Shown in pieces: positions 2,331 to 44,107 of a stretch of DNA of 64,000 nt. The stretch covers positions 1 through 64,000 of the forward strand of contig CANJLG010000011.1 of the NCBI GenBank assembly GCA_947475095.1, given 5' to 3'. A program made the translations under genes and the position numbers. Numbering within the stretch: the first letter of the stretch is position 1; every line of letters begins with the position of its first letter. This DNA comes from Flavobacteriales bacterium. Its GTDB lineage: Bacteria > Bacteroidota > Bacteroidia > Flavobacteriales_D > Crocinitomicaceae. The notes beneath the pieces were generated by a model. The model was not told the DNA's origin. It saw nothing but the letters and a program-made list of their open reading frames with translations, and did no database searches.

Positions 2331-2600
2331 GCTGGCCGAGTGATTCCGGTATCTCGATACAATCGCCCATGGCGACCACTCATTAGCGGAATCAGGATCC
2401 TACATTCCACAATATGACCCCGCTGGCCGAGTGATTCAGCCCTCTCGATACAATCGCCCATGGCGATCACTCGATTGGCGGAATAGTGTCAATGTGGTGG
2501 AGGCGGAATCGAAATCTTGCATCCCAATAAACGCCCTCGCCAGTCGAGTGTCCGCCGAAGGTGGATGTATCGATCCGCCATTGCGGAGGCGGATAAAAAT
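2331..2600. repeat. Interspersed palindrome-rich repeat block A (two core units plus a long tail)
   Basis: This fills most of the 2320-2688 gap and contains no credible gene. Core unit 1 is near 2331-2420 and core unit 2 near 2421-2484; both have GGCCGAGTGATTC, then TCGATACAATCGCCCATGGC, then a CACTCG...GCGGAAT segment. In the core, TCGCC-CAT-GGCGA forms a 5-bp hairpin, and GATTCCGCT can pair with AGCGGAATC, while CGAGTG can pair with CACTCG. Unit 2 is followed by a ~90-base tail (about 2485-2572) that recurs almost unchanged after core unit 4 in block B (about 5398-5477). Base composition is clearly more GC-rich than the neighbours. Confidence 0.85.
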
Positions 2601-2660
2601 TCACCAAAAACAAAAAATAAATAGGGTAAAAATAGGGTATTCCTTAATTATTCGAGCAAC

Positions 2661-2674
2661 ATACCTTAAGGTAT
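2661..2674. promoter_or_regulatory. Perfect 14-bp palindrome upstream of the orphan membrane protein gene
   Basis: ATACCTTAAGGTAT is a perfect dyad lying 15 bases before the ATG at 2689. A near -7 match (TAACTTTA, 2676-2683) directly follows it. It could be an operator; no binding protein is implied by the sequence. Confidence 0.35.
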
Positions 2675-2688
2675 AGTAACTTTAACTA

Positions 2689-4011
2689 ATGAAATTAGTT
2701 TTTGGATTTATCTTCTTTTTATCCTCTTATTTATGTTTTGCGCAAAGCATTCGGTTCAATAATTTAAATCCCTGCGTTTTTTATAATTATGAAGTGGACA
2801 AATTGTGTGTTATTGACGATAGCTCCCAAATGTTGCTCATTTCTTTGGAGTCTAAAAAGGTGGAGCGACGACCCATTCATTTGGATAAGCAAATTACCTT
2901 TAATCAGTTGCTGACTGAGTACGTTCCACTATCAGAGAAAGGCAGCCCCATTTATTTTGTTGATAGGGGGTGCGGTTACGTTTTGCAGCTAAGGAATGAT
3001 TCCATTGTACGTATTGACAATTCGTTTCATCATCGAAATCAATACGGCGGCGCCTTTTTCTTGCATGAGGGGGTTCCAAATATATTTGGTGGATACGGCC
3101 TTTTTTCGTCCAAAAATTTTATTACCAAATTTGATCCAAAATTGAAAGAGTGGTACCTTGACAACCAAAGTAAGCTGGTCGAGCCAGCTTATACATTTCC
3201 ATACTATAAGGACAAGGATAATTTATATGCACTTGTTAACATAAATGAATCATTTGATAAAACCAATTTTAAAAAACTTTGGAGATACAATCTCACAAAT
3301 GAATCATGGATTTTTGAAGGTCAAATCAACTATTTTGATTCAATTAAAGTTTCATTAAGAAAAGTAATAAATAATATATTAATCTTTAACACCTTTTTTT
3401 TGGAATTAGATTTTAAGAATAATTGCATCAATCGATTCAATCAAAACCCTTTTAATTCAATTTTGATTATTTATAAATTTAAAAATTATTACATAAAACT
3501 GCAGCATCAAACGATTTCAGATGTTCATTCTAGTTTAATGCTAATATATGATGAATCTGTATTCAAACGAGAATTTCTTATCGATCAAAATGTTTTATTA
3601 GTCACGGAAAATGTTTCTTTTTATGCGAAAGTTTTCGCTTTAATCGCGATCTTGTTACTTGGATTTATTTTCGTTATTTACTTTTTTATCCGAAAGAGAA
3701 AAAAGCAAGCTCCAAATTATACGATGAGTGAATCGTCCATTGAATTGTTAAATTTATGGGTATTCAAGCGCCATGGTATATTGGAATTATCGGATTTGAA
3801 TGATCTAGTGAATCCGGAACATTTATCCATTGAAACCATGAAAAAACGCCGTGAGGCCTTATTAAAGACTTTCGTTTTTGACATGGCAAAAAATTATAGG
3901 CTACCACCAAAATTCATTTTTACTGAAACTTTAAACCCAATGGATAAGCGCATGAAGGTTTTAACCCTACATCCCAAAATCATGGAAATAGTACTAAAGA
4001 AGGGTAATTAA
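2689..4011 (+). CDS. Single-pass membrane protein with large periplasmic domain and charged cytoplasmic tail, function unknown
   Basis: 440 residues. A signal peptide (residues ~1-19, ending LCFAQS) is followed by a ~290-residue periplasmic region rich in aromatic and beta-type sequence, one transmembrane helix (~310-332, VFALIAILLLGFIFVIYFF) and RKRKK, then a ~110-residue cytoplasmic domain containing ELSDLNDLV, ETMKKRREALLK and a C-terminal LNPMDKRMKVLTL. This layout resembles Bacteroidota one-component membrane sensors whose cytoplasmic part carries a winged-helix-like segment, but I cannot name the family. It stands alone between repeat block A and the LamG cargo gene and is much more AT-rich than the repeat. 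A sensory role is inference only. Confidence 0.7.
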   Translation: MKLVFGFIFFLSSYLCFAQSIRFNNLNPCVFYNYEVDKLCVIDDSSQMLLISLESKKVERRPIHLDKQITFNQLLTEYVPLSEKGSPIYFVDRGCGYVLQLRNDSIVRIDNSFHHRNQYGGAFFLHEGVPNIFGGYGLFSSKNFITKFDPKLKEWYLDNQSKLVEPAYTFPYYKDKDNLYALVNINESFDKTNFKKLWRYNLTNESWIFEGQINYFDSIKVSLRKVINNILIFNTFFLELDFKNNCINRFNQNPFNSILIIYKFKNYYIKLQHQTISDVHSSLMLIYDESVFKREFLIDQNVLLVTENVSFYAKVFALIAILLLGFIFVIYFFIRKRKKQAPNYTMSESSIELLNLWVFKRHGILELSDLNDLVNPEHLSIETMKKRREALLKTFVFDMAKNYRLPPKFIFTETLNPMDKRMKVLTLHPKIMEIVLKKGN

Positions 4012-6762: not shown

Positions 6763-9700
6763 CTATCGTATTAAAGTAACAAATCCACGTTTGGTTATTT
6801 GTCTGCCGCCGGCATCTTGAACCGTTACTACATAAAGGTAATTATCGTTTGGTGCATCATCTTTTCCTCCGTTAATTTTTCCGTCCCAACCCAAATTAAG
6901 ATCATTGCTTTCGAAAATGATATTACTCCATCGATTCATGATGTACATGCTATAATTTTTTGGGTCAATATTGGTTAAAATGGGTAAAAATACGGTGTTC
7001 ACTCCGCTTGGGCAAAATGAATTAGGAATGTAAATTATAGGGGTGTAAACCAAGCAAAATAGGTTTGATCTACTCGTTTCCGAAAATCCATAGCTATTTA
7101 CATTTTCTTTTGCTTCAACATAATAGCAAATTTCTCCTGGGAAATCATTACTCAGAAGGACATCTTCATAACTGAGTTGATTTGAATTTACGCTACCTAA
7201 AGATTGACTAAGTCCGCTCAGGATATTATAGCTGAATACTTCGTATTGGTTTACATTACCATCGAATCCAAGATAAGGCGACCAATAAACATAGTTTATT
7301 TGTTGTATTTCATCGGCGACACCTTGTAATAAAATACTTGTAGCATGATTACCATTGGAGCCATCATAGCCGCAACTATCAATGTATTGTGTTCGATAGG
7401 TATAGGATTGAACGCCGACATTAACATCGGTATCGGTAAATGTCGAAAGATTTCCAACAACAGGAGAGCGACCAATTTCTTCGAAAACGGAGGAACTGTT
7501 TAAGCGCTGAAATATTACTTCTTTTACCCCTACGCTACCATCGATGTAAGCTGCTAAATCAATATTTTCGTTCATTACGCTTGCTAATTTAAGGTAATGA
7601 AATGCTGGTTGCTGTGGAATTGGGACATCAAAGCCAAATGGATTTGAATAGGCTATTTGTCCATTTGATAGGTTGGCACCAATGTAAATATCGTAGTGAT
7701 TTCCACCGATCACATTCACACTTGCTGCATTCCCATTAGCTGTTCCCAGCAGAACTAATGCCCCCAATTCATAACTATAAATTCCGTAGGAGCTGGTCGT
7801 CCAGCCTTGGTAAGCAGTCCAGCTTAAATCTATTTTTTGTTGGCACATGTTGATCGCTCCATTGAGTTGAACGGTTTTATTGACAGGGCTTTTCGCTGAG
7901 GTTTGAAAGGTTATTGGGACGGCATTGGTAAAACATGAATCGAAGGCTGCTACAGAATAGGAGTAGGGGCCTTGACTTGGATCAATAGCATAGGAATAGG
8001 AAGTATTTCCAATTCCCCAAACGGTATCGAGTTCAAACAATACGCCCATCGAATTAAAGGTGTAAACAACGTATCCATAGGTGTCAGCTTGATTGTTTTG
8101 ATTCCAAGTCAACAGTAAATTATTGTTGTTCGTAGGATCAAATCCAGCACTTTGAATGGTTGGAATAGAGGGAGTAAGCATGTCCTCAAAATCATCACTT
8201 GGAATGTTGGATTGAAAATCACAAGGGCTATTTGGCAGAACGATTTGGTAGCCAATGGTTGCGTTACAAATGGTTATGGTGTCTTTGTATTGTGTGGTAT
8301 TGTAGGGAACAGAATCTATTAAAGTAAAATTTCCTGCAGGATATTCTTGATAAATATGGTAGTAGCTTCCGAATGTAGCTAAGGCCGTTGGTACTGGTTT
8401 ATTCCATTGAAGAACGGCTGTTCCATTTCCGGGATTAATAAGGTCTAGATGAATGTTGGAAATCGTGTCGCTGTATTTGGTGATGTTTCCGTTGCACCCA
8501 GAAACAACCGCAATATAAAAGGATTGCGCTGTAGTAATTCCACTTAACGAAAATTGATTGGTAGCAAGTGTTGGAATAGAAGCTAACAATCCATTCTGAA
8601 CAGAATAAAGTTGGTAAGAAACAAAGCTGCTGATAGGGTCATTGATGGGTGTCCAACTAATAATTACATTTCCGGCATTATCAGTTTGAATACAATCTAT
8701 TTTTGGAGCTTGTAGAATTCCGGGATTTAGTACGTTAATTTGAATGGTGGCATAATTAACCTTGGGTATTTGGCAATAATTATCTTGTGCTCTAAAAACA
8801 AAGGTATAGGGAATACTCTCAAGCACATTACCATACTGATTGACCAAATGATCGCAGCTAGTCTGCCAAGAGAAGGACACATTTGCTTGCTGTATTCCTG
8901 AAAGAGGAAGGGATTGATTTAGCGCAGCGCAAGGAAAAACTTGACAGCCAGTCGCTGAGGTAAAATTGTTCCCAAACATAGGACCACTTGCTGTTAAGGT
9001 AACCGTTTGAGGGCTACCATCTTGAAGGAACTCGTTATCGTTTGCTATAACATTAAAAGTAACTAAATCTCCTGCATTAACGCTGGCAGTATACACGCCG
9101 CCGGCAAAAGGTGCAGTGAAAATTGGTGCATTGTTTCCTGTTGCACATGGAACAATTACCAACTGCATTTCTCGCTCAACTTCGGCGATCAAAATGCCTT
9201 GGCGATAGGATTTCACCAATACTTTCACAACAAAATTCCCAACCGTGAACGAATTAAAGGTTATTTCACCATTGGAAGAATTTATGGCTGCAGAAACATT
9301 AGATGGATTAACACTATTGTTTGGTGTAGGCGATGAAAAGGTAAATCCGGGTTCAAAAGGAATAGGAATAGGATTCAATGGTGGATTGTAAGTGCCTGTT
9401 GGGAAATTATTATAAGGAATCCCAAATTCAATATAAAGCGAATCTAAATCAGGGTCCACGGCATTCATGTTATATCGGAATGGTGTTCCAGCGCAACTTA
9501 CAAAATAAGGTGCTTGTAAAAAGGTGGGGGAATTATCTGTACAACCGTTATCGATGCCATGCGCAAACATTTTAGCACTGAGTGTAATGCCATATGTTGA
9601 GGGTGAAGTTATGTTTGTCAATGAGTTACTCCGCGCAAAATTTTCATAAGTGAAAATCCATCCTTGAGTAGGCGGAATGCCTTGAATAGTGATGGCTGCA

Positions 9701-10047
9701 CTTCGATACGTAATTTTTTCGATGGCGCCAATCCCATTTCCTCCAGAAGTTCCAGAACCGCAATCTAAGGGAAGGGGGCCGCCAGCTACAGTGGTGCAAA
9801 GCGGTGAAATGTCTACACGCGAAACAAAGGGTAAAATAATCGTAGTTAAAGTTGGATGATTCCAAACACGAAGCGCTTCTGAAAGCGTATTTACTTCGGC
9901 GCCATTGCAATCGCGGTAAAAAACCAGTTCAAAGATATACTTATTGTTTCCGTCACATTTCCATGTTATTTCTCCCCCCATTACATGCGATCCAAAGGCT
10001 TTGGCACTAAGGAAAAGAAAGATAAATAGCGGAAGTAATTTTAGCAT
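6763..10047 (-). CDS. Giant secreted protein with gliding-motility-type (T9SS type B) C-terminal domain
   Basis: 1,094 residues. Signal peptide ~1-19, then SHVMGGEITWKC, the opening of a common Bacteroidota surface-protein family. The middle contains Ig/fibronectin-like beta domains with regular tyrosine/tryptophan patterns and many cysteines (residues ~300-1000). The last ~85 residues are the type B sorting domain: IYIPNSFCPSGVNTVF, MYIMNRWSNIIFES, GWDGKINGG and the final KRGFVTLIR. It should be carried across the outer membrane by T9SS and remain cell-surface attached or be released as an adhesin. No enzyme motif is visible. It precedes, without a gap, the family 9 glycosyltransferase gene. 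Confidence 0.85.
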   Translation of the reverse strand: MLKLLPLFIFLFLSAKAFGSHVMGGEITWKCDGNNKYIFELVFYRDCNGAEVNTLSEALRVWNHPTLTTIILPFVSRVDISPLCTTVAGGPLPLDCGSGTSGGNGIGAIEKITYRSAAITIQGIPPTQGWIFTYENFARSNSLTNITSPSTYGITLSAKMFAHGIDNGCTDNSPTFLQAPYFVSCAGTPFRYNMNAVDPDLDSLYIEFGIPYNNFPTGTYNPPLNPIPIPFEPGFTFSSPTPNNSVNPSNVSAAINSSNGEITFNSFTVGNFVVKVLVKSYRQGILIAEVEREMQLVIVPCATGNNAPIFTAPFAGGVYTASVNAGDLVTFNVIANDNEFLQDGSPQTVTLTASGPMFGNNFTSATGCQVFPCAALNQSLPLSGIQQANVSFSWQTSCDHLVNQYGNVLESIPYTFVFRAQDNYCQIPKVNYATIQINVLNPGILQAPKIDCIQTDNAGNVIISWTPINDPISSFVSYQLYSVQNGLLASIPTLATNQFSLSGITTAQSFYIAVVSGCNGNITKYSDTISNIHLDLINPGNGTAVLQWNKPVPTALATFGSYYHIYQEYPAGNFTLIDSVPYNTTQYKDTITICNATIGYQIVLPNSPCDFQSNIPSDDFEDMLTPSIPTIQSAGFDPTNNNNLLLTWNQNNQADTYGYVVYTFNSMGVLFELDTVWGIGNTSYSYAIDPSQGPYSYSVAAFDSCFTNAVPITFQTSAKSPVNKTVQLNGAINMCQQKIDLSWTAYQGWTTSSYGIYSYELGALVLLGTANGNAASVNVIGGNHYDIYIGANLSNGQIAYSNPFGFDVPIPQQPAFHYLKLASVMNENIDLAAYIDGSVGVKEVIFQRLNSSSVFEEIGRSPVVGNLSTFTDTDVNVGVQSYTYRTQYIDSCGYDGSNGNHATSILLQGVADEIQQINYVYWSPYLGFDGNVNQYEVFSYNILSGLSQSLGSVNSNQLSYEDVLLSNDFPGEICYYVEAKENVNSYGFSETSRSNLFCLVYTPIIYIPNSFCPSGVNTVFLPILTNIDPKNYSMYIMNRWSNIIFESNDLNLGWDGKINGGKDDAPNDNYLYVVTVQDAGGRQITKRGFVTLIR

Positions 10048-13763: not shown

Positions 13764-16700
13764 ATGAGGCATCTTGTCATTGTTTTTAGTTTCTTAATGC
13801 TCATCTATTGTTCTTGGGGTCAGGCTTCTAAATTAGGTATAGGAGCTTCGAACTTGAATCATTCGGGAGGATTTTTTGAAAATAAAGGGCAATGGCCCGC
13901 ATCCGTTCTTTTTAAGTCAGATGTCTGGGGAGGAAAAATATGGGTGCAACAACATAAACTCATTTACCATCAACAAGATTTCAGTGCCATGCACGAGAAT
14001 CACGGTCATCTTAAGCAGGGCTCAGTCACTGCGCTCAAAGAGACCGTAGTTCACGTTAATTTTTTAAATTCAAATGAGGTCACAGATGTCGAGTATAAAG
14101 GTAAAACTCCTTATTACCACAACTACCTAATAGGTAAGGATTCTAGTAAATGGGGAAGAGGAGTTTATGGTTATCAGGAATTCACCCTTAAGAATTACTA
14201 TGCGTCAATCGACATGACTTGGGCGCTTGCTAAAGGTCAACATAAGTATCAATTTACAGTGCATCCCGGTGCTAATCCTGCTGATATTGTGTGGGAATAT
14301 GTTGGGCAAAAGAGCGTAGACATCAACCGTAAAGGGCAATTGAACATAGAAACGGAACTAGGTTCGATTTCAGAGCAAAAACCTGTTGCTTTCCAGCTGA
14401 TTGGTGGCCGTCGAGTGGAAGTAAAATGTCGGTTTATTTTGGACGGCAATCAAGTTCATTTTGAACTTGGTCAGTACGACAAAACGATTCCTTTAGTAAT
14501 TGATCCTGTTTTGGTATTTGCGACCTATAATGGTGCTTTTTCTGACAATTTCGGAATGACGGCCACGTATGGTAATAATGGCATTGCCTTTTCCGCGGGT
14601 ACGGTATATGGTAATAATTTCCCCATTCCGAACGTAAATGTTTTTGATCCAACTTCTAATTTTACGGCTATTGGAGGAAATTATGGCATAACCGATGTGT
14701 TTATCACCAAATATAATTCCCAGGGAACAGCCTTACTTTGGGCTACTTTCTTAGGTGGCGGTAACAGCGTACAAGGAACCGAAACGGCCAATAGTTTGAT
14801 CTGTGATTCACTCGATAACATTTGTGTTTTTGGAGCGACATCTAGTATAGATTTTCCGACTTCTCCCGGCGCTTTTCAGCCCAACCATGCCGGTGGAGTA
14901 GCCGGTGCAAATTTCACTTCTAATGGAGTGTATTTTCAAAATCAAGGTACTGATATTTATGTGTCAAAAATCAGTGCTAACGGGCAAAATCTTTTAGCTT
15001 CTACGTATGTAGGTGGTTCGGGCAATGATGGAGTAAATTATAATGTCTCTGGCACCTACGACTCGTTGGTTTCGAATTACGGCGATCAATTTCGAGGTGA
15101 AATCATGCTTGATGAACAGGGAAATACCATCATTGCGTCTTGTACCCGTTCACTCAATTTTCCTACGCTTAATCCTTTTCAAGCAACTAATAACGGCCAA
15201 GAAGATGGGGTTATTTTTCGCCTAAATCCCAATTTTTCGAACCTTCAATTCTCAACGTATTATGGAGGCACTCAAAATGACGCTTGTTACTCTGTAAAAA
15301 TAGATACTTTGTCCAATGTTGTGGTATGTGGAGGAACGTCCTCATCCGATCTGCCTGGTACGGTTGGCGGTCTCATGGGTACTTATCAAGGTGGAAAATC
15401 AGATGGGTTTGTTATTCGATTAAATCCGACTGGAACAGCCTTAACGGCGGGAACATATTTAGGGCGAACGGCCTATGACCAAACGTTTTTTGTAGAAGTA
15501 GACAGAGATAATAACGTCTTTGTTTTGGGGCAATCTGTGGGTGGAACTTTTCCCGTTTGGAATGCGCCCTACACTAATTCAAGCTCCAGCCAATTTGTTA
15601 TCAAGTTAAATAATAATCTAAGCACAAATATGGCTTCCACTCAGATAGGAAATGGAAGCTCACAAATTAACATCTCCCCTTCTGCCTTTTTGGTAGATAT
15701 TTGTGGTAACATTTATGTTTCCGGTTGGGGCGCAAATATCCTCCAAAACATACCCATTTCCGGGATGCCTGTTACGCCGAATGCCTTTCAATCCACTACC
15801 ACAGGATTTGATTTTTACCTTATGGTCATTGAACATGATTTTCAAAGTTTGTTGTACGCAACATACATGGGAGGCCCGATTGCTCATGAACACGTTGATG
15901 GTGGTACCAGTAGATTCGATAAAAATGGAGTTGTGTACCAATCGGTATGCGGTGGATGCGGCGGACTTAGCGATTTCCCTACCACGCCAGGGGCATATTC
16001 CGCTAGCAACAATAGTAGCAACTGTAATAATCTGCTATTCAAATTTGATTTTCAGCTCATTCCGACTGCCATTTTTAATTCAAGTGCTAATATAGGTTGC
16101 GAAGATTTTCAGGTCAATTTTATCAATTTCTCTTCTCAAAATGATTCCTATTTGTGGGATTTCGGCAACAACCAAACCTCTTCAACGATTTTTAATCCAA
16201 TCATTACCTATACTGAACCTGGAGTTTACAATGTTTTCTTGTATGTAACCGATAGCGTTTGTTTACTCACTGATACGGCATTAACTACCATTACGGTTTT
16301 GGATTCTATTGTTTTTAACTTGTATGATACCCTCAGCCTATGCTCTAATGCTCCTTATTTACTTAGTCTACAAGCCAACGGAACCGCCAATGAGTTCATC
16401 TGGTCTCAAAGTCCAAATTTTACAAATCCTTTGAATTCAAATCCTAGTAGCCCTTCTGTTTTATTGATCAGTGCCAATCCTGGATGGTACTATGTATCAG
16501 TTTCTAATGGTTTTTGCACTACCACGGATAGTGTCTTCGTGGAATTCGACGTGCCCGTAAATGCCAGTTTTCTACCTTCGGAAGTAGGGGGATGTGTCCC
16601 TTTAACAGTAAATTTTAATAATTCATCAAGTATTACGAGTAACTTTTATTGGGATTTTGGAAATGGTGCTATCGATTCTGTTAATTATAATACAAGTATA

Positions 16701-17816
16701 ACTTATACCCAAGCAGGTTCTTATTTAGTTTCGCTCATTATAGTTGATTCCTTGTGTGCTAGTACGGATACTACTAATTTTATGATTAATGTTTCGCCCT
16801 CTGTAGCGGTAAACCTGACTGATGTTATTTACTTATGCTCTAGTGAAGCAATTACCTTACAACCTTTTGTAAGCGGTGCTGCTAATTATTTTATCTGGTC
16901 AACAAATAACCAATTTACAGATACCTTGAATGCAACGATACTAGACACAACTTTGTTCTTAATTGATCCCCAACCAGGGTATTATTATTTTCAAGCGGGT
17001 AATAATAACTGCTTCGTAACAGATAGTGTTTCGATTGAAATTTTTAGCAATCAGCTAAATTTAACTGCGTCCAATACGCTTTGTTTAGGAGATAGTCTTT
17101 TGGCTTCAGTGATAAATACAGGGCAGGAATTGTTTACGTATGAATGGTCTCCTTTATCAATTATCCTAAATCCAAGTAATTCAAATCAGGTATTTGTTCA
17201 ACCATTAACGTCGCAATATATCTATGTGGAGGCCACATCGGCCAATAATTGTGTTGTGAATGATTCGGTTTTTGTAAATGTGTTTTATCTTGATCCTAGC
17301 TCTGTCATTGCTTCTGCTCAACCAACATTGGTGGTGCCAGGTTCGCAAGTTTTGCTGAGCGGACTTCCAAGTGGAATGGCAACTTATTCTTGGACGCCTA
17401 CTGCGGGTCTTAATACGCCAACTTTGCAGAACACTTTCGCAACGGTTCAACAAACCACCATTTTTACGCTCACTGTTTCTGATGGGGTTTGCTTTATAAG
17501 TGATACAACAGAAGTGAAGGTGTATGAAATAATTTGTGATCACCCGTATGTTTTTGTTCCGAATGCATTTTCACCAAATGGTGATGGAAATAATGATATC
17601 TTGTTTGTGAGAGGACTTTGGGTCGAAAAAGTGATTTTCCGAATTTTTGATCGTTGGGGAGAGTTGGTTTTTGAGTCCGATCAGGTCGCAAATGGTTGGG
17701 ATGGCACCTTCCAAGGTCGTAAATTAGACCCTGATGTTTATGATTATTATTTGGACGTAACGTGTATCGGAGGATTGAAGTCAATTAGTAAAGGAAATGT
17801 AACATTAATGAAATAA
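13764..17816 (+). CDS. Giant T9SS type B cargo protein with ENKGQ domain, SBBP beta-propeller and PKD domains
   Basis: 1,350 residues. Signal peptide ~1-19. Residues ~30-250 form the N-terminal domain that opens FFENKGQWPASVLF (called DUF7948 in recent databases, from memory). Then come seven-bladed-propeller style SBBP repeats (~255-770) with repeated 'YxxYxGG' and 'D...N.y..G.t.S.dfPt' motifs. Two PKD-like domains follow (around VNFINFSSQNDSYLWDFGN and VNFNNSSSITSNFYWDFGN), then Ig-like segments and a type B sorting domain: YVFVPNAFSPNGDGNNDILF, IFDRWGELVFES, GWDGTF and KGNVTLMK. It is a surface or secreted adhesin-like protein. The downstream M42 peptidase gene starts three bases after its stop. 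Confidence 0.88.
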   Translation: MRHLVIVFSFLMLIYCSWGQASKLGIGASNLNHSGGFFENKGQWPASVLFKSDVWGGKIWVQQHKLIYHQQDFSAMHENHGHLKQGSVTALKETVVHVNFLNSNEVTDVEYKGKTPYYHNYLIGKDSSKWGRGVYGYQEFTLKNYYASIDMTWALAKGQHKYQFTVHPGANPADIVWEYVGQKSVDINRKGQLNIETELGSISEQKPVAFQLIGGRRVEVKCRFILDGNQVHFELGQYDKTIPLVIDPVLVFATYNGAFSDNFGMTATYGNNGIAFSAGTVYGNNFPIPNVNVFDPTSNFTAIGGNYGITDVFITKYNSQGTALLWATFLGGGNSVQGTETANSLICDSLDNICVFGATSSIDFPTSPGAFQPNHAGGVAGANFTSNGVYFQNQGTDIYVSKISANGQNLLASTYVGGSGNDGVNYNVSGTYDSLVSNYGDQFRGEIMLDEQGNTIIASCTRSLNFPTLNPFQATNNGQEDGVIFRLNPNFSNLQFSTYYGGTQNDACYSVKIDTLSNVVVCGGTSSSDLPGTVGGLMGTYQGGKSDGFVIRLNPTGTALTAGTYLGRTAYDQTFFVEVDRDNNVFVLGQSVGGTFPVWNAPYTNSSSSQFVIKLNNNLSTNMASTQIGNGSSQINISPSAFLVDICGNIYVSGWGANILQNIPISGMPVTPNAFQSTTTGFDFYLMVIEHDFQSLLYATYMGGPIAHEHVDGGTSRFDKNGVVYQSVCGGCGGLSDFPTTPGAYSASNNSSNCNNLLFKFDFQLIPTAIFNSSANIGCEDFQVNFINFSSQNDSYLWDFGNNQTSSTIFNPIITYTEPGVYNVFLYVTDSVCLLTDTALTTITVLDSIVFNLYDTLSLCSNAPYLLSLQANGTANEFIWSQSPNFTNPLNSNPSSPSVLLISANPGWYYVSVSNGFCTTTDSVFVEFDVPVNASFLPSEVGGCVPLTVNFNNSSSITSNFYWDFGNGAIDSVNYNTSITYTQAGSYLVSLIIVDSLCASTDTTNFMINVSPSVAVNLTDVIYLCSSEAITLQPFVSGAANYFIWSTNNQFTDTLNATILDTTLFLIDPQPGYYYFQAGNNNCFVTDSVSIEIFSNQLNLTASNTLCLGDSLLASVINTGQELFTYEWSPLSIILNPSNSNQVFVQPLTSQYIYVEATSANNCVVNDSVFVNVFYLDPSSVIASAQPTLVVPGSQVLLSGLPSGMATYSWTPTAGLNTPTLQNTFATVQQTTIFTLTVSDGVCFISDTTEVKVYEIICDHPYVFVPNAFSPNGDGNNDILFVRGLWVEKVIFRIFDRWGELVFESDQVANGWDGTFQGRKLDPDVYDYYLDVTCIGGLKSISKGNVTLMK

Positions 17817-33532: not shown

Positions 33533-35437
33533 TTATCCTTCCTCAGATAAAACAATAATTTTATCTAAGTCTGTAAATTGAATATAATCATCTTTCTTAG
33601 GATTAATAACTACCCCATAAGCAGCATCTTGGTTGTGAATTAATGAGTTAATTCGATATCCAATAGCCGTATCACCTCTTCTTTTGGCACTTTCCATGAG
33701 TGTATAAAAGTTTACACTTTCTTCCGTTTTAATATAATCATTTATTGGCTTTAGATAAATTTCACTTCCTTCAGATCGCATTAAATCTTCAAAAACTCTC
33801 ATCAATTGTTTGTTTTCAGAAACTTGACTCATCATTAAACTAATAAGTTTATCACTGACGATAAAATCATCGGCCTTTGTAACGTTAGCTAAGTCTCGGT
33901 TTTTAATATCGAGCATTTCAGAAACGATTTTTATTTCTTTGTTCAATGTTTCTGAAATGTGACGAAGGTGTAAAAGCGTAATCATCGTTGATGCATCTGC
34001 TTCTTGTATTTCCATCTCTTCGCGGTAACAAAGAACTTGAATACTATTATAGTCTATTATATTTAAGTCTTTAATAACGCTATTGTCCGTTGTGTCTTTG
34101 TGGGTAAAATTTATGATTAAATTATTAAAGTCGTTTTTATAATTTGAAATTATCGATTCATCAATAGGGAAACTTGAAATGATATCTACGATTGAATTTT
34201 TTGCTACATAATCATTTAATTCACGCAGTAATAATCCTCCTCTTGTATTCCATCCTAGCATTAGAATTTTTTCAGGGCTTGATTCAGAGTTATTTGAATG
34301 CTGAATAGCTGCCTCATTAATTAAAAAATCTTTTGTTGTTGATGGAATTAAGGAGTCATCATCTTCTGTTATAGCGATTACTTCGTCACCCGGCATCAAA
34401 ACGTAATCCATAGGAGGATTAATTAATATAACCGAATTTGCTTTATTGTTTATTCCAATTACAGCTGAATCATTAAAGGCGACAATAACTTCCGAATAGG
34501 GTTTGGCTATCAAGTTATCTATTTGAGAAAAATAAATTTCAGCACCATCGAAGTCCATTAATTCCTGATAAACAATAGATAATCCACTTTGTCGGGAGGT
34601 TTGAATTATTATTTTGGCAATAATTTCATCTGATAAAATAATTTCTAGTTCATCACCTCCTATTAACTTACATATTTCAATATTTCTCTCATTATTTAAT
34701 TCTGTTGTGATATGATATGGATCGATTCTTCTATTCGGACTTTTAGTAATAGCCAAGATTGTTTTAATGATTTGAGCATCTGATTTATTAAAGTCATCTG
34801 ATAAAATAATGATGCTTTTTGAATCTTGAGGATTTACTATTTCAAGATCTTGTAAATTATTTGGGCTACCATTTCTACAGACGATTTTTAGCTTTCCTAG
34901 ATTTGGAAACGCTTCTTTTATTTCATCCTCCATTTCTACCTTATCTTTTTCCGCTAAAATTACTATTCGCGGTTTTTTCTTATTTTCATTTGCAATACTT
35001 AGCTCGGAAATAATTGTAAATATCTTAGTTGACCAACCTAGAATTAAGGTATGATTTTTTTCAATAACGAAGCTTCTGCCTTGTCTTAATTGATCTAATT
35101 TAGCTTCAATGCCATTATTCAATACACCGATTAAGGTTGAGATTATGAATATTCCACCAATTGTTACTAGAAATGCTATTATTCGAAAGCTCCATCCGGA
35201 ATCGCCGCCCATTGTCCCAGGGTCCAAGGTTCTCATTAGGCTAAGCCAAGCACCTTCAATAAAATTCAATTCTTCTTCCCCCTCGGGTTTAATAGCCAGT
35301 AAGCTAATGACAGCTGCTGCAACGATGACAATTAAAAGAGAAGTAATACCAAGCAATGAAATCATTGCAAGGGTGCCCTTGCTCATCAAGTTATCAAATT
35401 TGTATCGTAATGTACTGAGTAAATTTCTTTTTTTCAT
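33533..35437 (-). CDS. CASTOR/POLLUX-type ion channel protein with RCK-like domains
   Basis: 634 residues. Hydrophobic helices at ~20-48 and ~83-107 flank a pore-like segment (IEGAWLSLMRTLDPGTMGGD). After this come two Rossmann/RCK units, the first beginning NHTLILGWSTKIFTIISEL (~130) and the second ILMLGWNTRGGLLLRELN (~390), each with a C-terminal TrkA-C-like part. This order fits the plant CASTOR/POLLUX nuclear cation channels and their bacterial relatives. It should sit in the inner membrane with the RCK region in the cytoplasm. It lies 176 bases downstream of the SPFH/GYF gene group on the same strand; co-regulation is possible but not proven. Confidence 0.82.
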   Translation of the reverse strand: MKKRNLLSTLRYKFDNLMSKGTLAMISLLGITSLLIVIVAAAVISLLAIKPEGEEELNFIEGAWLSLMRTLDPGTMGGDSGWSFRIIAFLVTIGGIFIISTLIGVLNNGIEAKLDQLRQGRSFVIEKNHTLILGWSTKIFTIISELSIANENKKKPRIVILAEKDKVEMEDEIKEAFPNLGKLKIVCRNGSPNNLQDLEIVNPQDSKSIIILSDDFNKSDAQIIKTILAITKSPNRRIDPYHITTELNNERNIEICKLIGGDELEIILSDEIIAKIIIQTSRQSGLSIVYQELMDFDGAEIYFSQIDNLIAKPYSEVIVAFNDSAVIGINNKANSVILINPPMDYVLMPGDEVIAITEDDDSLIPSTTKDFLINEAAIQHSNNSESSPEKILMLGWNTRGGLLLRELNDYVAKNSIVDIISSFPIDESIISNYKNDFNNLIINFTHKDTTDNSVIKDLNIIDYNSIQVLCYREEMEIQEADASTMITLLHLRHISETLNKEIKIVSEMLDIKNRDLANVTKADDFIVSDKLISLMMSQVSENKQLMRVFEDLMRSEGSEIYLKPINDYIKTEESVNFYTLMESAKRRGDTAIGYRINSLIHNQDAAYGVVINPKKDDYIQFTDLDKIIVLSEEG

Positions 35438-35613
35438 AATTAATTTGGTGTCGTTTGAGCTTAATAAGCCTTTTTGTTAGGTTCTATAAAACTAGGATTT
35501 AAATCGTTTTAGATTTTTGCATCAAGAGATTACAAAAGATTATTTTTTGAAATTAAATCTTTGATGTCATTTTAAAATAATATTACTATAGGTGGATTTC
35601 TGAGTACTAATAA

Positions 35614-35973
35614 TTACTGAGCTGCCTTATAAATGAAGTAGGTAATTAAGGTATATGTTAGAATTGAAATACCAGAAACAATGATCAATATCGGAATACT
35701 AGTAAGGAAGGTATTCATTAAAAAGATGAAAATAAATCCAATAATAAAAGAAACAAAACTAAAGGTTTTTATTACCGTTCCTGTTCTTGGTAATGTAAAA
35801 GATACCCCAAAACAAAAAGATAAGGTTGTTAGTCCAAATAGAAAAGAAATTAATGTAATGGCAATTTTAAAGTCTTCTTTTCTCATAATGGAAAGATCAA
35901 TTGCGTAATAACCATAGGCTATTAAACTACTGATTAGAAAGCAGATTAAAAAGGGAACGAGATTCAACTTCAT
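35614..35973 (-). CDS. Small four-helix membrane protein, function unknown
   Basis: 119 residues with four hydrophobic helices (about 5-27, 37-58, 66-88, 92-113) joined by short polar loops. No motif is recognised. It starts two bases after the stop of the GYF_2 protein gene, so it belongs to the same operon. Confidence 0.7.
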   Translation of the reverse strand: MKLNLVPFLICFLISSLIAYGYYAIDLSIMRKEDFKIAITLISFLFGLTTLSFCFGVSFTLPRTGTVIKTFSFVSFIIGFIFIFLMNTFLTSIPILIIVSGISILTYTLITYFIYKAAQ

Positions 35974-35975
35974 AG

Positions 35976-36326
35976 TTAAGTATTTTGAATGAATGGAGGT
36001 GGGGCTAATGCTATTAATTTTAATACTGACGCAATATTTTCAGCCATTAACCAATTTGTCATGCCCGTCTTCCAGAAATAGGTGTTTTTATCTATTTTTT
36101 TCTCAAAAAATAGCCTAATTACCTCAGATTCGGAAAATGGACCCGCTTGATTTCCATCTAATATTACATAGTAGAAATTCTGCGGGTTGTTCATTTGATT
36201 CATAGAACCCGGAATTTGCATCTTGTTAATTGACTCATTCATGGTGTTAACCATTTGTTGAGCAATTGAAACACTCATTCCGAATTCTATTAATCTATTA
36301 ATAGAAAAAAAACTTTCTTCTTCCAT
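35976..36326 (-). CDS. GYF_2-domain protein
   Basis: 116 residues from ATG 36326 (MEEESFFSINRLIEFG); an in-frame ATG at 36365 would overlap the upstream gene by 28 bases. The N-terminal half is helical with SVSIAQQMVNTMNESINKM; the C-terminal half is a GYF_2 domain: FYYVILDGNQAGPFSESEVI, DKNTYFWKTGMTNWLMAENI, ending in APPPF. GYF-type domains bind proline-rich peptides. The SPFH protein of this group carries a matching GYF_2 domain and polyproline stretches, suggesting that these proteins bind each other. Confidence 0.78.
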   Translation of the reverse strand: MEEESFFSINRLIEFGMSVSIAQQMVNTMNESINKMQIPGSMNQMNNPQNFYYVILDGNQAGPFSESEVIRLFFEKKIDKNTYFWKTGMTNWLMAENIASVLKLIALAPPPFIQNT

Positions 36327-36337
36327 GTTTATATTTT

Positions 36338-36643
36338 TTAGCCCATCATGCAATAAATCCACCAAATTGCATCAGCAATAGCAAGGTATGCCCAATATTT
36401 AGTGGTACCAGTTCTTAAACCTTTAACCATAAAGATCAATGCAGCAAAACCAATATTGAAGGCAATAAGTGTAACATAAAGTTTATTGTCTGCACTTTCT
36501 AAGGCGCCAAAGTCTAATTTAAAAGCTGCTTTCAATCCATCTTGTACAAATAAGGCAATTGGTAATATGTTTATGAAAATTAGTACAAAAAACATAATAA
36601 CATTAATCACAAATTTACCTGCTGTTGGTTTATCGTTACTCAT
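36338..36643 (-). CDS. Small three-helix membrane protein, function unknown
   Basis: 101 residues with hydrophobic helices at ~12-33, ~53-72 and ~82-98. No family recognised. It is 86 bases behind the SPFH gene and 11 bases ahead of the GYF_2 gene on the same strand. Confidence 0.7.
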   Translation of the reverse strand: MSNDKPTAGKFVINVIMFFVLIFINILPIALFVQDGLKAAFKLDFGALESADNKLYVTLIAFNIGFAALIFMVKGLRTGTTKYWAYLAIADAIWWIYCMMG

Positions 36644-36729
36644 AATAAAATAATTTAAATTAATTCCCTACTCTTTGGTTTTTCGGGTTCCACCTTTTTT
36701 AACGTTTTATATTGTTTTTTACACTCAGT

Positions 36730-38073
36730 TTAAATTGTTGGCGGTGGTGGCGGTGGTGGTGGAACAGCACTAAATAAAGTTGCTAATTCTTGCACATTGC
36801 CTGCTATTTCCCACGCCGCCATTCCTGCTTTCCAAACATGTGTGTTTTGGCCAAGTTGTCCATTTTGCACCATTTGTTGCAATTGTTGTAAATTAAAAGG
36901 GCCAGCAGTTTGACCATTTACTGAAACGCTATAAGCAATTGTTGGTGGAGGTGGGGGTGTGTTTTGTTGTTGGTTCATATTTTGTCCCATATTATTCATC
37001 ATGCCTGCCATTTGATTTCCCATGGCTCCACCCATCATCATTCCGGTCATCATTCCAGCTGGATTCATTCCGCCGCCTCCGCCACCTCCCATGTCTCCCA
37101 TACTACCTAAACTGGCTGCCCCTGTTTTTAAAACATCCGTCTGCTGGTTTAAGGCATGAGCACCCATGAAATTTGTCTCCGTTTGTAATTTTTGTCCTCT
37201 TTGGGCCTCTTCTCTTTGAATTCTGAGTGTCTCGCTCATATTTGCAGCATTAATAGCCTGCATATCTGCAAGATTTTGAATGCCAATATCGGTTTGAGCG
37301 CTCGTTGTTTTTGTAGTTTGCTCCGCAGTAACTTTTCTTAATTCAGCATATCCTTCACTTTCCTTATCAACTTCTATAGAGGCTAAATCAAACCCTTTTA
37401 CATTAACTCCGAAATCAGCCTCAAGTCGTTCTTTAATTTTTACAGCGATTAAGTCATTGATATCAAGTAATTTTCGTTCCATTTGCAAAACAGGCATGTT
37501 ATTATCTGCGGGAGCATTGGTAATTACACCTTTTACATACTTGGTTACAGCATCCTTGATTTGTTGATTAAAATCATCTAATTCGAAATTAATTAATCGG
37601 TTTAGTTTTATAAAGCTCTGATAATCAGTAATATTAAAGGTAATAGTACCACGAGCAGCGACTGGCACTGCGAAGTCTAAAAATCGCGGATCGAAAACAT
37701 CAAAGAAAGGAATACCAAATCTAACTTGAATATTACCGGATAAATTGATGAAATATATTTCTGCCTGAAATGGTGAAGCGCCACCAAATGCCAATCCAAC
37801 AATACCCGATAAAACCGGAAAATTGGCAGTTTTAATTGTTTGGTCGTAAGGTCCAGTAATATAGTCCTGCAACGAGCCGTCTTTTTGCTGGTAAACAAAA
37901 ACGGCCATTTCTCCATCTTTAACACGCAAGCTGCTACCATAGCGTATTGCATTTTCTTTTTTTGTTGAATTTGCTTCGCCAGATGGTCTCCATTTCCAAA
38001 CAAGATATTCTTGCTCGTCACAACGGATTACATCCATCATTCCACCTTCTGATTTTTTTCCGAATAGGCCCAT
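36730..38073 (-). CDS. YdjI-like SPFH-domain protein with C-terminal GYF_2 domain
   Basis: 447 residues beginning MGLFGKKSEGG. An SPFH/Band 7 domain of the YdjI type (old name 'virion core protein-like') covers ~15-240: YLVWKWRPSG, LRVKDGEMAVFVYQQKDG, FINLSGNIQVRFGIPF, ARGTITFNITDYQSFIKLN. A helical region (~240-320) and a Gly/Met-rich linker (GGGGGGGMNPAGMMTGMMMG) follow, then PPPPP, a GYF_2 domain (AYSVSVNGQTAGPFNLQQLQ ... NTHVWKAGMAAWEIAG) and a terminal polyproline run. In Bacillus subtilis the related YdjI sits with PspA in a membrane-stress operon. No PspA is found here. The protein should form membrane-associated assemblies. Confidence 0.85.
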   Translation of the reverse strand: MGLFGKKSEGGMMDVIRCDEQEYLVWKWRPSGEANSTKKENAIRYGSSLRVKDGEMAVFVYQQKDGSLQDYITGPYDQTIKTANFPVLSGIVGLAFGGASPFQAEIYFINLSGNIQVRFGIPFFDVFDPRFLDFAVPVAARGTITFNITDYQSFIKLNRLINFELDDFNQQIKDAVTKYVKGVITNAPADNNMPVLQMERKLLDINDLIAVKIKERLEADFGVNVKGFDLASIEVDKESEGYAELRKVTAEQTTKTTSAQTDIGIQNLADMQAINAANMSETLRIQREEAQRGQKLQTETNFMGAHALNQQTDVLKTGAASLGSMGDMGGGGGGGMNPAGMMTGMMMGGAMGNQMAGMMNNMGQNMNQQQNTPPPPPTIAYSVSVNGQTAGPFNLQQLQQMVQNGQLGQNTHVWKAGMAAWEIAGNVQELATLFSAVPPPPPPPPTI

Positions 38074-38087
38074 ACTTTTATTGTCTT

Positions 38088-39668
38088 TTAATTAACTTTT
38101 ATATTTATTTGATTCGCATAGTATGTAATTTCTTCCATTGCTTTTTTATCTTCTTTCAAACTAAATTTGGCTTTCATAACAATTTGTTCGGCCTTTGTAA
38201 ACCAGGCTTTATAGATTTTTCCTTTACCTGTGCCCATCATCATGAAATTGGGTTTGTTCTTGCATTCTGGCACTGCCATTGTCAAAAACTCAAGAATGTC
38301 TTCTTTAGAATTGGGAATTGGGAAGGATGAAATAATACTTGCTTTCCGTGTTAATATAATTTCTTCAATATTTGTAGTAAGTGATTTCATTGCTCTTAAG
38401 TTAGCAGTGGGATCAGTAAATCTGCTAAAAACACTACTACTTTGTATTGGTTGATTTTTCTCATTCGATTCTCTTTCTCTTTCTTCGGATTCAACCGCTA
38501 TTAGCTGTTCATGAAGTTTTGTGACAGATGATACGGCACTAATGTTAGAAAAAGAATGCCCGCAATCAGCGCAAATTGCAGAGTATGATTGAACAATGGC
38601 GTTACAAGCAGGACATTTCCTAAGTTCACCCATTTTATTATTATTTACATTTTGTTGGGCTTGGGGAATAGGCTGTGCTGGAGGTGGGGGCGTGCTTGAT
38701 TGAGGGATAACCGGTATTGTGTTAGCTTGGCTATTATTTTTTTGTTGCTTTTCGAATAGTCGTGCACTCAGTACCATTTCGAATTCATCATGGTCAATTC
38801 CTGCTGCAGTTGCCTTTTTAAATAGAATTTCTCGTTCTTTTTCTGACAATTCTCCATCCATAAGAGCCATCTCAATAAATTTTTCTAATTGTTCGTCGTA
38901 CATAGATTCAGAATTTGTAGTTTGGGATATATTATTTTGTATTGAAGAACCAGTATCGCTATTGGAAGGTTCTTCTTTAGTAACTTGGGGTGTTATCACT
39001 TCAATTATTGGGGCATTCGCAGTACTTTCTGAAGATTTGGGCTTCATTAAGTTTTGTTTTGTCTCATTAAACTCAAATTCTGTAATAACGTCATCTTCCT
39101 CTAATTCTTTGAGCATTCTTAAGGCATCAGTCATGACCAAGGAACTATCTTGAGATAGCTTAAAAAGGAGCATTGATTTTTGGGACTTGAAATCTTTTTC
39201 CGTAATTATATCATCATCAGTTAATTCTGAAAGTTGGGTTAACTCTTTTTGCCATTTGCTTAAATTGGTTTTAGAATTAAGGTTTGAACCAACTGAATTT
39301 GATTGACTATTTTCAACAGTATTTGACTGGCTGTTTTCTGAAAAATTAGGGGATGTTATGCTATTAGCAGCTCTTTGTTTTTTATAATTTTCCTGCCCTA
39401 TTTCAATTTGTTTTTTTATTGCTGTGACATCAGCAGCTGTAAAGCCGGAAGCCGTAATAATGTCCCAGCCAACGGAATAGATGATGATGGTTGAATATCC
39501 AATAAAAGGAGTTTTTAACTTTACAGAAGAGATCAAGTGAAAGGGGATCGTTTTTTCTTTTCCGCCAAAAAGACCTGGTATTTTTAGGGTTATACCTATT
39601 GGTTCAATAATAACTCTTGCTGGAAACAATTTATTACCGTCTGATAATCTTGACGCTTCAAATTCCAT
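38088..39668 (-). CDS. PH-SHOCT-TerB-zinc-ribbon multidomain protein
   Basis: 526 residues from ATG 39668 (MEFEASRLSDG); the in-frame ATG at 39698 lies upstream of the -7 element and is unlikely. Order of parts: a PH-like beta domain (~1-90, with GLFGGKEKTIPFHLISSVKL); two SHOCT-like segments (SELTDDDIITEKDFKSQKSM and ELEEDDVITEFEFNETKQNL); a TerB-type helical domain (EMALMDGELSEKEREILFKK); a proline-rich linker; a zinc ribbon (KCPACNAIVQ ... CADCGHSF); and a ~145-residue C-terminal domain I do not recognise. SHOCT, TerB and zinc ribbons recur in membrane-stress and Ter-type systems. The SPFH gene begins 14 bases downstream. Confidence 0.78.
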   Translation of the reverse strand: MEFEASRLSDGNKLFPARVIIEPIGITLKIPGLFGGKEKTIPFHLISSVKLKTPFIGYSTIIIYSVGWDIITASGFTAADVTAIKKQIEIGQENYKKQRAANSITSPNFSENSQSNTVENSQSNSVGSNLNSKTNLSKWQKELTQLSELTDDDIITEKDFKSQKSMLLFKLSQDSSLVMTDALRMLKELEEDDVITEFEFNETKQNLMKPKSSESTANAPIIEVITPQVTKEEPSNSDTGSSIQNNISQTTNSESMYDEQLEKFIEMALMDGELSEKEREILFKKATAAGIDHDEFEMVLSARLFEKQQKNNSQANTIPVIPQSSTPPPPAQPIPQAQQNVNNNKMGELRKCPACNAIVQSYSAICADCGHSFSNISAVSSVTKLHEQLIAVESEERERESNEKNQPIQSSSVFSRFTDPTANLRAMKSLTTNIEEIILTRKASIISSFPIPNSKEDILEFLTMAVPECKNKPNFMMMGTGKGKIYKAWFTKAEQIVMKAKFSLKEDKKAMEEITYYANQINIKVN

Positions 39669-43531: not shown

Positions 43532-44107
43532 TTATAATTTATAGGCATCCATAGCATCTTGCATTGCTTTTTCAGCATCTTTCTGTGCACCTTTAACAGC
43601 ATCACCAGCCTCTTCCATTGCGTCGTTCATGTCTTCATTAGAATTTAGAAGCTTCATTGATTCCCCTAATGCTTTACCATACATTTCGTATGCAGCGTCT
43701 AGGTCTACCATCTTTCCAGCTTCTAATTGAACTGCTAGTTTAGTCAAGGAAAGCATAGCCTTTAATTCTGAACTTGAGAATTTTTCCTTCGCATAACTTT
43801 CTAATTCATCCATTTTTTCTTTAAAAGCATCTTTTTCTTCAGCTGTTCCAGTTTTAACTATTTCAGCATATTCTGCAATCATTTCTTTGTACTTATTTGA
43901 TGCATCTTGCGCTGATGTTAGCGATTCTACATTCAAGTCACTGGAACCCATGCTTGCACCTGTTTCATCATCATCTGCGCTAGCTTCACTAGTTGGGGGT
44001 GTTGTAACTGACGCTTTACTATCGTCTGTTTTTGATCCTCCACAACTATTTAAAGCAAGAGAAAAACCAGCAATTAATACAGAAACATAAATTAATTTTG
44101 TTTTCAT
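43532..44107 (-). CDS. Putative lipoprotein with acidic coiled-coil-like body
   Basis: 191 residues. Signal MKTKLIYVSVLIAGFSLALNSC with a lipobox (LNSC, Cys22). A disordered Ser/Thr/Asp-rich stretch (~24-60) is followed by a highly helical, acidic region with heptad-like spacing (AEKAMQDAMDA at the end). No family recognised. The gene stands alone, with a long pyrimidine tract just upstream of its start. Confidence 0.75.
   Translation of the reverse strand: MKTKLIYVSVLIAGFSLALNSCGGSKTDDSKASVTTPPTSEASADDDETGASMGSSDLNVESLTSAQDASNKYKEMIAEYAEIVKTGTAEEKDAFKEKMDELESYAKEKFSSSELKAMLSLTKLAVQLEAGKMVDLDAAYEMYGKALGESMKLLNSNEDMNDAMEEAGDAVKGAQKDAEKAMQDAMDAYKL

Follow-up and report, generated by a model that had tools for sequence, protein, structure and literature searches.

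Do an SPFH protein and a channel of the plant CASTOR/POLLUX type, encoded side by side in a bacterium without PspA, belong to one system, and what might such a system do? The genes in question lie in the window, the 64,000-nucleotide stretch analysed here (positions 1 to 64,000 of contig CANJLG010000011.1, assembly GCA_947475095.1, of a Flavobacteriales bacterium of the Crocinitomicaceae). As a first-pass annotation of this DNA had described, six consecutive open reading frames (ORFs; A to F) occupy the minus strand, from the ATG of A at 39668 to the stop codon of F at 33533. The conserved unit is an A-B-D-E operon, with C and F as optional additions; the channel F is recurrently linked to this module beyond chance, but is optional. 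The genes are:

38088 to 39668, minus strand: A, candidate adaptor protein of 526 amino acids (ORF, Pfam, alignment, structure model)
36730 to 38073, minus strand: B, SPFH protein of 447 amino acids (Pfam, alignment, structure model, hydropathy)
36338 to 36643, minus strand: C, small membrane protein of 101 amino acids, optional (homologues at some loci)
35976 to 36326, minus strand: D, conserved N-terminal segment, GYF_2 domain and PPP tail (Pfam, alignment), with the start taken as ATG 36326 where the ORF list has a TTG start at 36365
35614 to 35973, minus strand: E, small integral membrane protein of 119 amino acids, probable anchor (hydrophobic segments, conservation in the core operon)
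33533 to 35437, minus strand: F, CASTOR/POLLUX-type channel of 634 amino acids, optional partner (Pfam, PDB match, residues)

The intergenic gaps are 14 bp (A-B), 86 bp (B-C), 11 bp (C-D), 2 bp (D-E) and 176 bp (E-F); thus, A-B-C-D-E look like one operon, with F beyond a larger gap. Pfam cut-offs are passed by B (Band_7_1 and GYF_2), D (GYF_2) and F (Castor_Poll_mid and Slo-like_RCK), and nothing in an NCBIfam scan of A to F lies over a cut-off. A scan of genome contigs with B gave 270 relatives, from which the best 80 loci were taken (best-segment identity 64-89%). These are labelled nearly all Bacteroidota, the exceptions being one Verrucomicrobiota, one Spirochaetota and one that has no phylum label; many are metagenome-assembled genomes, for which taxon labels can be wrong. 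Two loci in which the ORF caller found no full B (L039 and L075) were dropped. Among the 78 counted, 57 have A upstream and D and E downstream of B on the same strand within 2.5 kb, and several of the remaining 21 are cut by contig ends. The neighbourhood is kept well beyond close relatives and far above chance. The six-gene set first proposed as a unit stands as to its A-B-D-E core and falls as to C and F being fixed members.

The core is built around B and D, the features of which are:

37354 to 37962, minus strand: SPFH (Band_7_1) domain of B (profile E 1.2e-23; second scan 3.2e-24)
36943 to 36957, minus strand: polyproline before the GYF_2 domain of B (PPxP pattern)
36784 to 36927, minus strand: GYF_2 domain of B (E 4.2e-17, 62.1 bits against a cut-off of 25.8)
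36739 to 36762, minus strand: C-terminal polyproline tail of B (tail pattern)
36030 to 36173, minus strand: GYF_2 domain of D (E 1.7e-13, 50.5 bits against a cut-off of 25.8)

The SPFH assignment of B and the two GYF_2 domains of the first-pass annotation are confirmed by these profiles, as is polyproline on both sides of the B GYF_2. In order, B consists of the SPFH domain, a long helix (residues 240-319), a Gly/Met-rich linker, polyproline, GYF_2 and the polyproline tail, and a hydropathy scan found no transmembrane segment in it. In the B model (mean predicted local distance difference test score, pLDDT, of 71), SPFH and GYF folds stand on either side of an 80-residue helix and a linker of low confidence. 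Fold comparison places it closest to stomatin, HflK/C, prohibitin and flotillin, with E values down to 1.8e-7. The GYF domain of GltJ (PDB 7z3c) is a weaker match (E 1.7e-3) and the top-ranked GYF fold; by sequence it is the only solved GYF relative of B (E 5.5e-5). GltJ of Myxococcus is by name a gliding-motility protein, while the GYF domain of B is fused to SPFH. Similarity to stomatin-type SPFH proteins (PDB 9oh9, 7vhq, 9zd2) lies in the SPFH fold, and one solved stomatin complex is, by structure title, with aquaporin 1; unlike the stomatins, B has no membrane segment that was found, and the fold matches are only 12-13% identical.

The paired GYF_2 and polyproline elements are kept in most relatives. 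PPxP precedes GYF_2 in 75 of 78 B homologues and the polyproline tail is present in 75 of 78; B as a whole is strikingly conserved, at a mean column identity of 69% (40 members aligned). D has a conserved N-terminal segment besides its GYF_2 domain, and its tail carries PP in 63 of 73 homologues by a plain count (58/73 by a stricter pattern). GYF domains bind proline-rich peptides (the title of PDB 3fma agrees). Since polyproline also flanks the B GYF_2 on both sides, GYF-polyproline cross-linking is proposed, with the GYF_2 domains of B and D as the predicted polyproline binders.

The channel-like RCK protein F is confirmed as such by Castor_Poll_mid (E 4e-32, 110.8 bits against 26.7) together with Slo-like_RCK. 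The closest solved structures are plant CASTOR and DMI1 (E about 1e-68 to 1e-67; 3.7e-68 for CASTOR). F is laid out as two hydrophobic segments around a DPG filter followed by a gating ring, and the pore reads TLDPG, with no TVGYG. One residue of the pore is placed at:

35222 to 35224, minus strand: filter aspartate D72 of F (by-eye alignment to CASTOR D265, PMC6697748)

D72 was placed by eye on the printed filter, since the matched solved chains start after the pore. In PMC6697748, CASTOR is a Ca2+-selective, Ca2+-regulated channel, and plant CASTOR mutants of E493 lose function. Counts of F residues leave out fragments shorter than 550 residues (L188 and L209) and include two copies from one genome (G024). 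The filter aspartate is kept in 37 of 38 F homologues, as is the equivalent of E493 (E300 in F; 37/38), and the equivalents of E552, D553 and D554 (E358, D359 and D360 in F) are kept in 32, 36 and 35 of 38, respectively. F shares with plant CASTOR/POLLUX/DMI1 (PMC6697748) a gating ring that is sequence-related over most of its length, the filter aspartate and the Ca(II)/Ca(III) carboxylates. Unlike the plant proteins, F has two rather than four hydrophobic segments, does not conserve the Ca(I) residues and resides in a bacterial operon context. Because the filter and gating-ring residues are conserved as in CASTOR, the sequence suggests that F is a Ca2+-type channel gated by cytoplasmic Ca2+.

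How firmly F belongs to the module was judged from 79 module genomes (50 + 29), with F counted at E <= 1e-30. Locus L028 was left out as the same assembly as L011, and the first 50 included L079, where a nearby F was already known, and the hand-picked L052, L056 and L060; L052 is from Gelidibacter gilvus, a cultured carrier of the module that has no F. F is present in 12 of the 50 and 1 of the 29 (13/79). The first 50 gave 15 matches at E <= 0.001, of which the weaker ones in G077, G088 and G102 were not counted; none of these is within the stretch examined around B. In eight of the 13 carriers, F lies within 3.1 kb of B on the same strand, where 0.1 of 13 would be expected by chance at 10 kb (P about 1e-14, with genomes treated as independent though they are not). 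The presence of a channel beside the module, as first noted, is non-random. Ten near cases are known with the window and G457 included, all on the same strand: F is straight after E in the window, L008, L012, L013 and L079, further downstream in L010, and upstream of B in L004, L007, L036 and G457. In an even sample of 395 genomes of the class, with B taken at E <= 1e-60, B occurs in nine and F in 24 (own genome included). Both are present in three, namely the own genome, G457 and G439 (the source of L010), and in each of these B and F are no more than 3 kb apart. The F-near state needs seven changes on the drawn B tree, which has many weak branches and on which loci from short contigs count as not near. 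Among the five genomes with F not near B, the contigs of G060, G068 and G094 are too short for certainty.

Protein A consists of a putative PH-like extension (residues 1-103), helices at about 130-208, a TerB-like region at about 259-315, a zinc ribbon (350-374) and a conserved helical C-terminus (381-520). Two of these parts recur across the family:

38724 to 38894, minus strand: TerB-like helices of A (Pfam, family matches, modelled helices 259-315)
38547 to 38621, minus strand: zinc ribbon of A with four cysteines (Pfam, alignment)

The first-pass annotation had read A as PH, SHOCT, TerB and zinc ribbon. TerB is weak in the window protein (E 0.04, 14.6 bits, cut-off 24.4) but recurs at E <= 0.01 in 37 of 68 A-family members, and the helices between 259 and 315 are modelled mostly at pLDDT above 90. 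The zinc ribbon is likewise under its cut-off in the window (best 2.8e-4, 21.4 bits against 29) but recurs in the family (Zn_ribbon_3 at E <= 0.01 in 53/68); each of the four cysteines is kept in at least 90% of the aligned A family, as are a few TerB-like residues. SHOCT does not hold: none is in the Pfam list for A at E <= 1, PF09851 has no match genome-wide at E <= 10, and the part so labelled is the helices at about 130-208. The extra N-terminal half of the window A, to judge by predicted secondary structure, may hold a PH-like part ahead of those helices. Residues 1-103 form six strands and a helix at low pLDDT, with PH folds found by Foldseek at E 0.4 or worse and no match of the Pfam bPH domain in A. 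A PH-like fusion at the A N-terminus is plausible, as two loci encode a PH protein as a gene of its own (bPH_1, E about 1e-46 to 1e-48), between B and D in L011 and directly after B in L044. The A model has a mean pLDDT of only 70-71; Foldseek gave no match for it at E <= 0.001, and a second comparison gave only helical matches with Z < 8, so that A is assigned no fold. A PADLOC match of A to PDC-S48 (E 0.0067), the best of the six proteins, was not used.

Two to four A-family genes occur per locus in L003, L008, L011, L027, L034 and L079; this suggests that A is prone to duplication and variation, unlike the constant B. The own genome also has a second A-family gene (L232, contig C49, positions 2545-3402; 36% identical over 267 residues), which lies away from the module beside transporter-like and aminotransferase-like genes (labels by eye).

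Of the small proteins, E is the probable membrane anchor, and gene order and the 2-bp gap suggest that D may tie the assembly to it. The helix counts first given for C and E (three and four) are unconfirmed, as a simple hydropathy scan, itself no proof, gives 2 and 3. C has no family in Pfam or NCBIfam, and E has only two Pfam matches, both far below cut-offs. C homologues lie between B and D in L007, L008, L010 and L079. L010 has another copy upstream; in L085 the homologue lies past E, and in L233 it adjoins F (by eye). C as a strict partner of F was rejected, as it also has homologues at loci for which no F match was obtained (L085, in genome G013; weakly L046 and L055). A small lipoprotein-like family that Pfam does not recognise is met again close to the module in L008, L012, L013, L079, L085 and L086; in L233, such a gene adjoins F and a C-like gene, with B of that genome on another contig. 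In the window, the corresponding feature is:

43532 to 44107, minus strand: lipoprotein gene (label by eye), possible extra member (recurs near the module in relatives)

Ion_trans channels follow the module in L071 (12178-13053, less than 60 bp past an E-like gene), L024 (13020-13823) and L046 (15862-16728).

Among the closest known systems is the phage-shock response. The absence of PspA that was first proposed is borne out: PF04012 (PspA/IM30) has no match in the whole own assembly, and 30 of 33 distinct module genomes are without it. Of the three with a match at E <= 0.001, two are over the cut-off, and nine of 14 control genomes are positive; the search covered 37 entries, with four genomes entered twice (G006 = G066, G141 = G062, G492 = G071, G215 = G086). 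In Bacillus subtilis, where the Band_7_1 model also matches, membrane placement of PspA requires YdjI, together with YdjG and YdjH (PMC8581546), and YdjI is noted together with PspA (PMC10936438). The module shares with PspA-YdjGHI (PMC8581546, PMC11237479) a Band_7_1 SPFH protein without its own membrane helix, small membrane proteins and a zinc-ribbon protein in the operon. Unlike that system, the module has no PspA in operon or genome, B ends in GYF_2 and polyproline rather than a zinc ribbon (the ribbon is on A), no TPM-domain (YdjH) match occurs in A to F at E <= 1, and D and E are without a match there.

A theme of band-7 protein, channel, multi-transmembrane protein and lipoprotein has precedent. 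Ravi et al. (PMC11237479) describe phage-shock-protein (PSP)-like operons with a ligand-sensing K+ channel, a DUF350 protein of four transmembrane segments and a lipoprotein, and in one variant a protein with band-7, two transmembrane segments and SHOCT replaces the PspA pair; SHOCT is found most often with PF13421 (PMC3581485). The module resembles these operons in its band-7 protein, cytoplasm-gated channel, multi-transmembrane protein and lipoprotein. It differs in its channel, which is of the CASTOR type and lacks a TVGYG filter, in having no polyamine genes among A to F, and in the GYF_2, polyproline and TerB-like parts that stand where those operons have SHOCT. The word GYF is absent from the main text of PMC11237479. 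No description of the SPFH-GYF module or its pairing with a channel was found in the open-access literature (subscription journals and preprints being outside the scope), and no title naming such a module is among the literature matches listed for SPFH/TerB/zinc ribbon or castor_poll_mid.

The module is patchy in Bacteroidota and apparently horizontally transferred. Full-length B occurs in six of 37 genomes of the genus; among 60 relatives, B matches 15 at E <= 0.001 and is full-length in seven (own included), the rest being more distant SPFH-GYF relatives. The window B is 88% identical to that of G439 and 85% to that of G141, with which it has only the class in common, compared to 73% (G013), 70% (G024) and 65% (G014, G030 and G457) for same-genus copies; a sixth, G006, is at 88%. 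Transfer is favoured because the window B is nearer to these class-only relatives than to most same-genus copies. A quick B tree is weak evidence of transfer by itself: the starred branches force two genus-label changes, 32 of 82 inner branches are weak, and, besides L009 (the G006 genome), more of the rows without a label may be of the genus. The A-F genes are flanked on the plus strand by a dapF-like gene (name by eye) and a radical-SAM gene (radical SAM/SPASM by Pfam). Twelve same-genus loci around the radical-SAM gene gave no tblastn match to A-F (E <= 1e-10, 40% of query), a search that short C, D and E could escape; eight of the 12 show at least 9 kb beyond the radical-SAM gene, and seven keep the neighbouring phosphoribosyltransferase-like gene. 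The lack of A-F matches at these loci indicates that the module is accessory at this site, by insertion or loss. For a plasmid vehicle, there were no matches in 72,556 plasmid records, and 50,697 phage records gave one (MT835670.1, L235), an unverified record.

Two viral stretches carry related genes. In L235 (5050-7762), the gene after an A-like and B-like pair encodes a protein that starts like a zinc ribbon, which suggests a wider A-B pair. The viral contig L234 (5122-7275) has an A-like gene (28% over 151 residues) and then a B homologue (51% over 322 residues), with no D or E match in the stretch examined. Elsewhere in the window, large proteins at 6763-10047 and 13764-17816 bear CHU_C type IX secretion signals.

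The reading preferred here, at a probability of about 0.5, is that the module is a PspA-free, YdjI-like SPFH scaffold in which GYF-polyproline contacts provide the cross-links, D and E the anchor and A the adaptor, and which is coupled to a channel in some lineages. The A-B-D-E operon would build a cytoplasmic scaffold on the inner membrane face, in which B, judging from its family, would oligomerise via the SPFH domain and long helix. The flexible tail of B, with polyproline ligands flanking GYF_2, would cross-link B to B and B to D, and D would connect the lattice with E in the membrane. A, which combines a TerB-like region, a zinc ribbon and a conserved helical domain, may be an adaptor or sensor. 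Such a scaffold could act in the manner of the phage-shock YdjI branch, though without PspA, and may serve membrane integrity or ion stress. In a subset of lineages, the source genome included, it would be coupled to a channel of the CASTOR type, probably permeable to Ca2+ and gated by it. Stomatins are thought to cluster and regulate channels. Similarly, the scaffold might cluster or regulate F, or might assemble on an ion signal that F admits; in both forms, the coupling is suggested by linkage.

Several observations weigh against this reading. Of the 79 module genomes, 66 have no F at E <= 1e-30, and B at E <= 1e-60 is missing from 21 of the 24 class-sample genomes with F; thus, neither B nor F needs the other. 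B and the two F copies of G024 lie on separate contigs, and B and F are apart in G063 and G507. In the source genome, the E-to-F spacing of 176 bp means that a single transcript is not a given, and promoter and terminator scans scored no higher than in shuffled sequence. The Ca(I) site residues D442, D444 and H463 are unconserved, with N249, R251 and S269 in F and variable residues across the 38 homologues; in plants, D444 of CASTOR is dispensable for nodulation (PMC6697748). PPP is present in only eight of 67 A proteins, and 10 of 73 D tails are without PP.

Part of this evidence also speaks for a simpler view, in which A-B-D-E is a self-contained membrane-stress module and the channel a frequent passenger in mobile or variable regions, with no functional coupling. 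The scarcity of F among module genomes, its usual occurrence without B, the apparent transfer of the module and the unrelated genes that come and go beside it all fit a passenger. A passenger would account less well for an F that lies near B in eight of 13 carriers, with the strand shared every time, three or more arrangements and seven changes on the tree, or for the second channel type (Ion_trans), which lies less than 60 bp past E in L071 and farther along in L024 and L046. This view is judged somewhat unlikely. A bolder version of the scaffold reading, in which an SPFH lattice with GYF-polyproline contacts clusters and gates the CASTOR-type Ca2+ channel, turns membrane damage into a Ca2+ signal, recruits repair and substitutes for the phage-shock response in PspA-less Bacteroidota, is held to be unlikely.

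An accessory anti-phage conflict system, with the scaffold as sensor of membrane damage and the channel or a membrane protein as effector, would suit the patchy distribution and signs of transfer, the tyrosine-recombinase-like genes (by eye) in six of 81 loci and the A-B-like pair on a virus contig. Among 80 same-strand neighbours, chosen by hand for the scan, three match PADLOC PD-T4-3, and the PD-T4-6 models match one member each (25 of 66 families listed). No PADLOC match of A-F themselves is better than E 0.0067, the neighbour families are diverse with no common effector among the 25 of 99 listed, and the plasmid and phage records hold zero and one match; the anti-phage explanation is considered improbable. 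A shared cargo or defence island was rejected on the same diversity of the neighbour families listed. L017, L022 and L030 have three related neighbours, probably those that match LEM-3-like GIY-YIG (Pfam) and PD-T4-3 (PADLOC).

The first-pass annotation had linked TerB domains to Ter-type stress systems. The idea that the module is such a system, centred on TerB and directed at metal or oxidative stress, draws on the TerB-like region of 37 of 68 A-family members and is very improbable, as the window A is under the TerB cut-off and not among the two TerB hits of its genome at E <= 0.001, and TerB is the only Ter family in the Pfam scans of A-F (Ter genes near relatives were not searched by name).

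If the preferred scaffold reading is true, PspA-less Bacteroidota would gain a membrane-stress scaffold of their own, and GYF-polyproline pairing would be shown able to build SPFH assemblies. The operon is compact, and its predictions are testable protein by protein. It would also offer a bacterial setting in which to study the role of a prokaryotic CASTOR-type channel and the control of channels by SPFH proteins.

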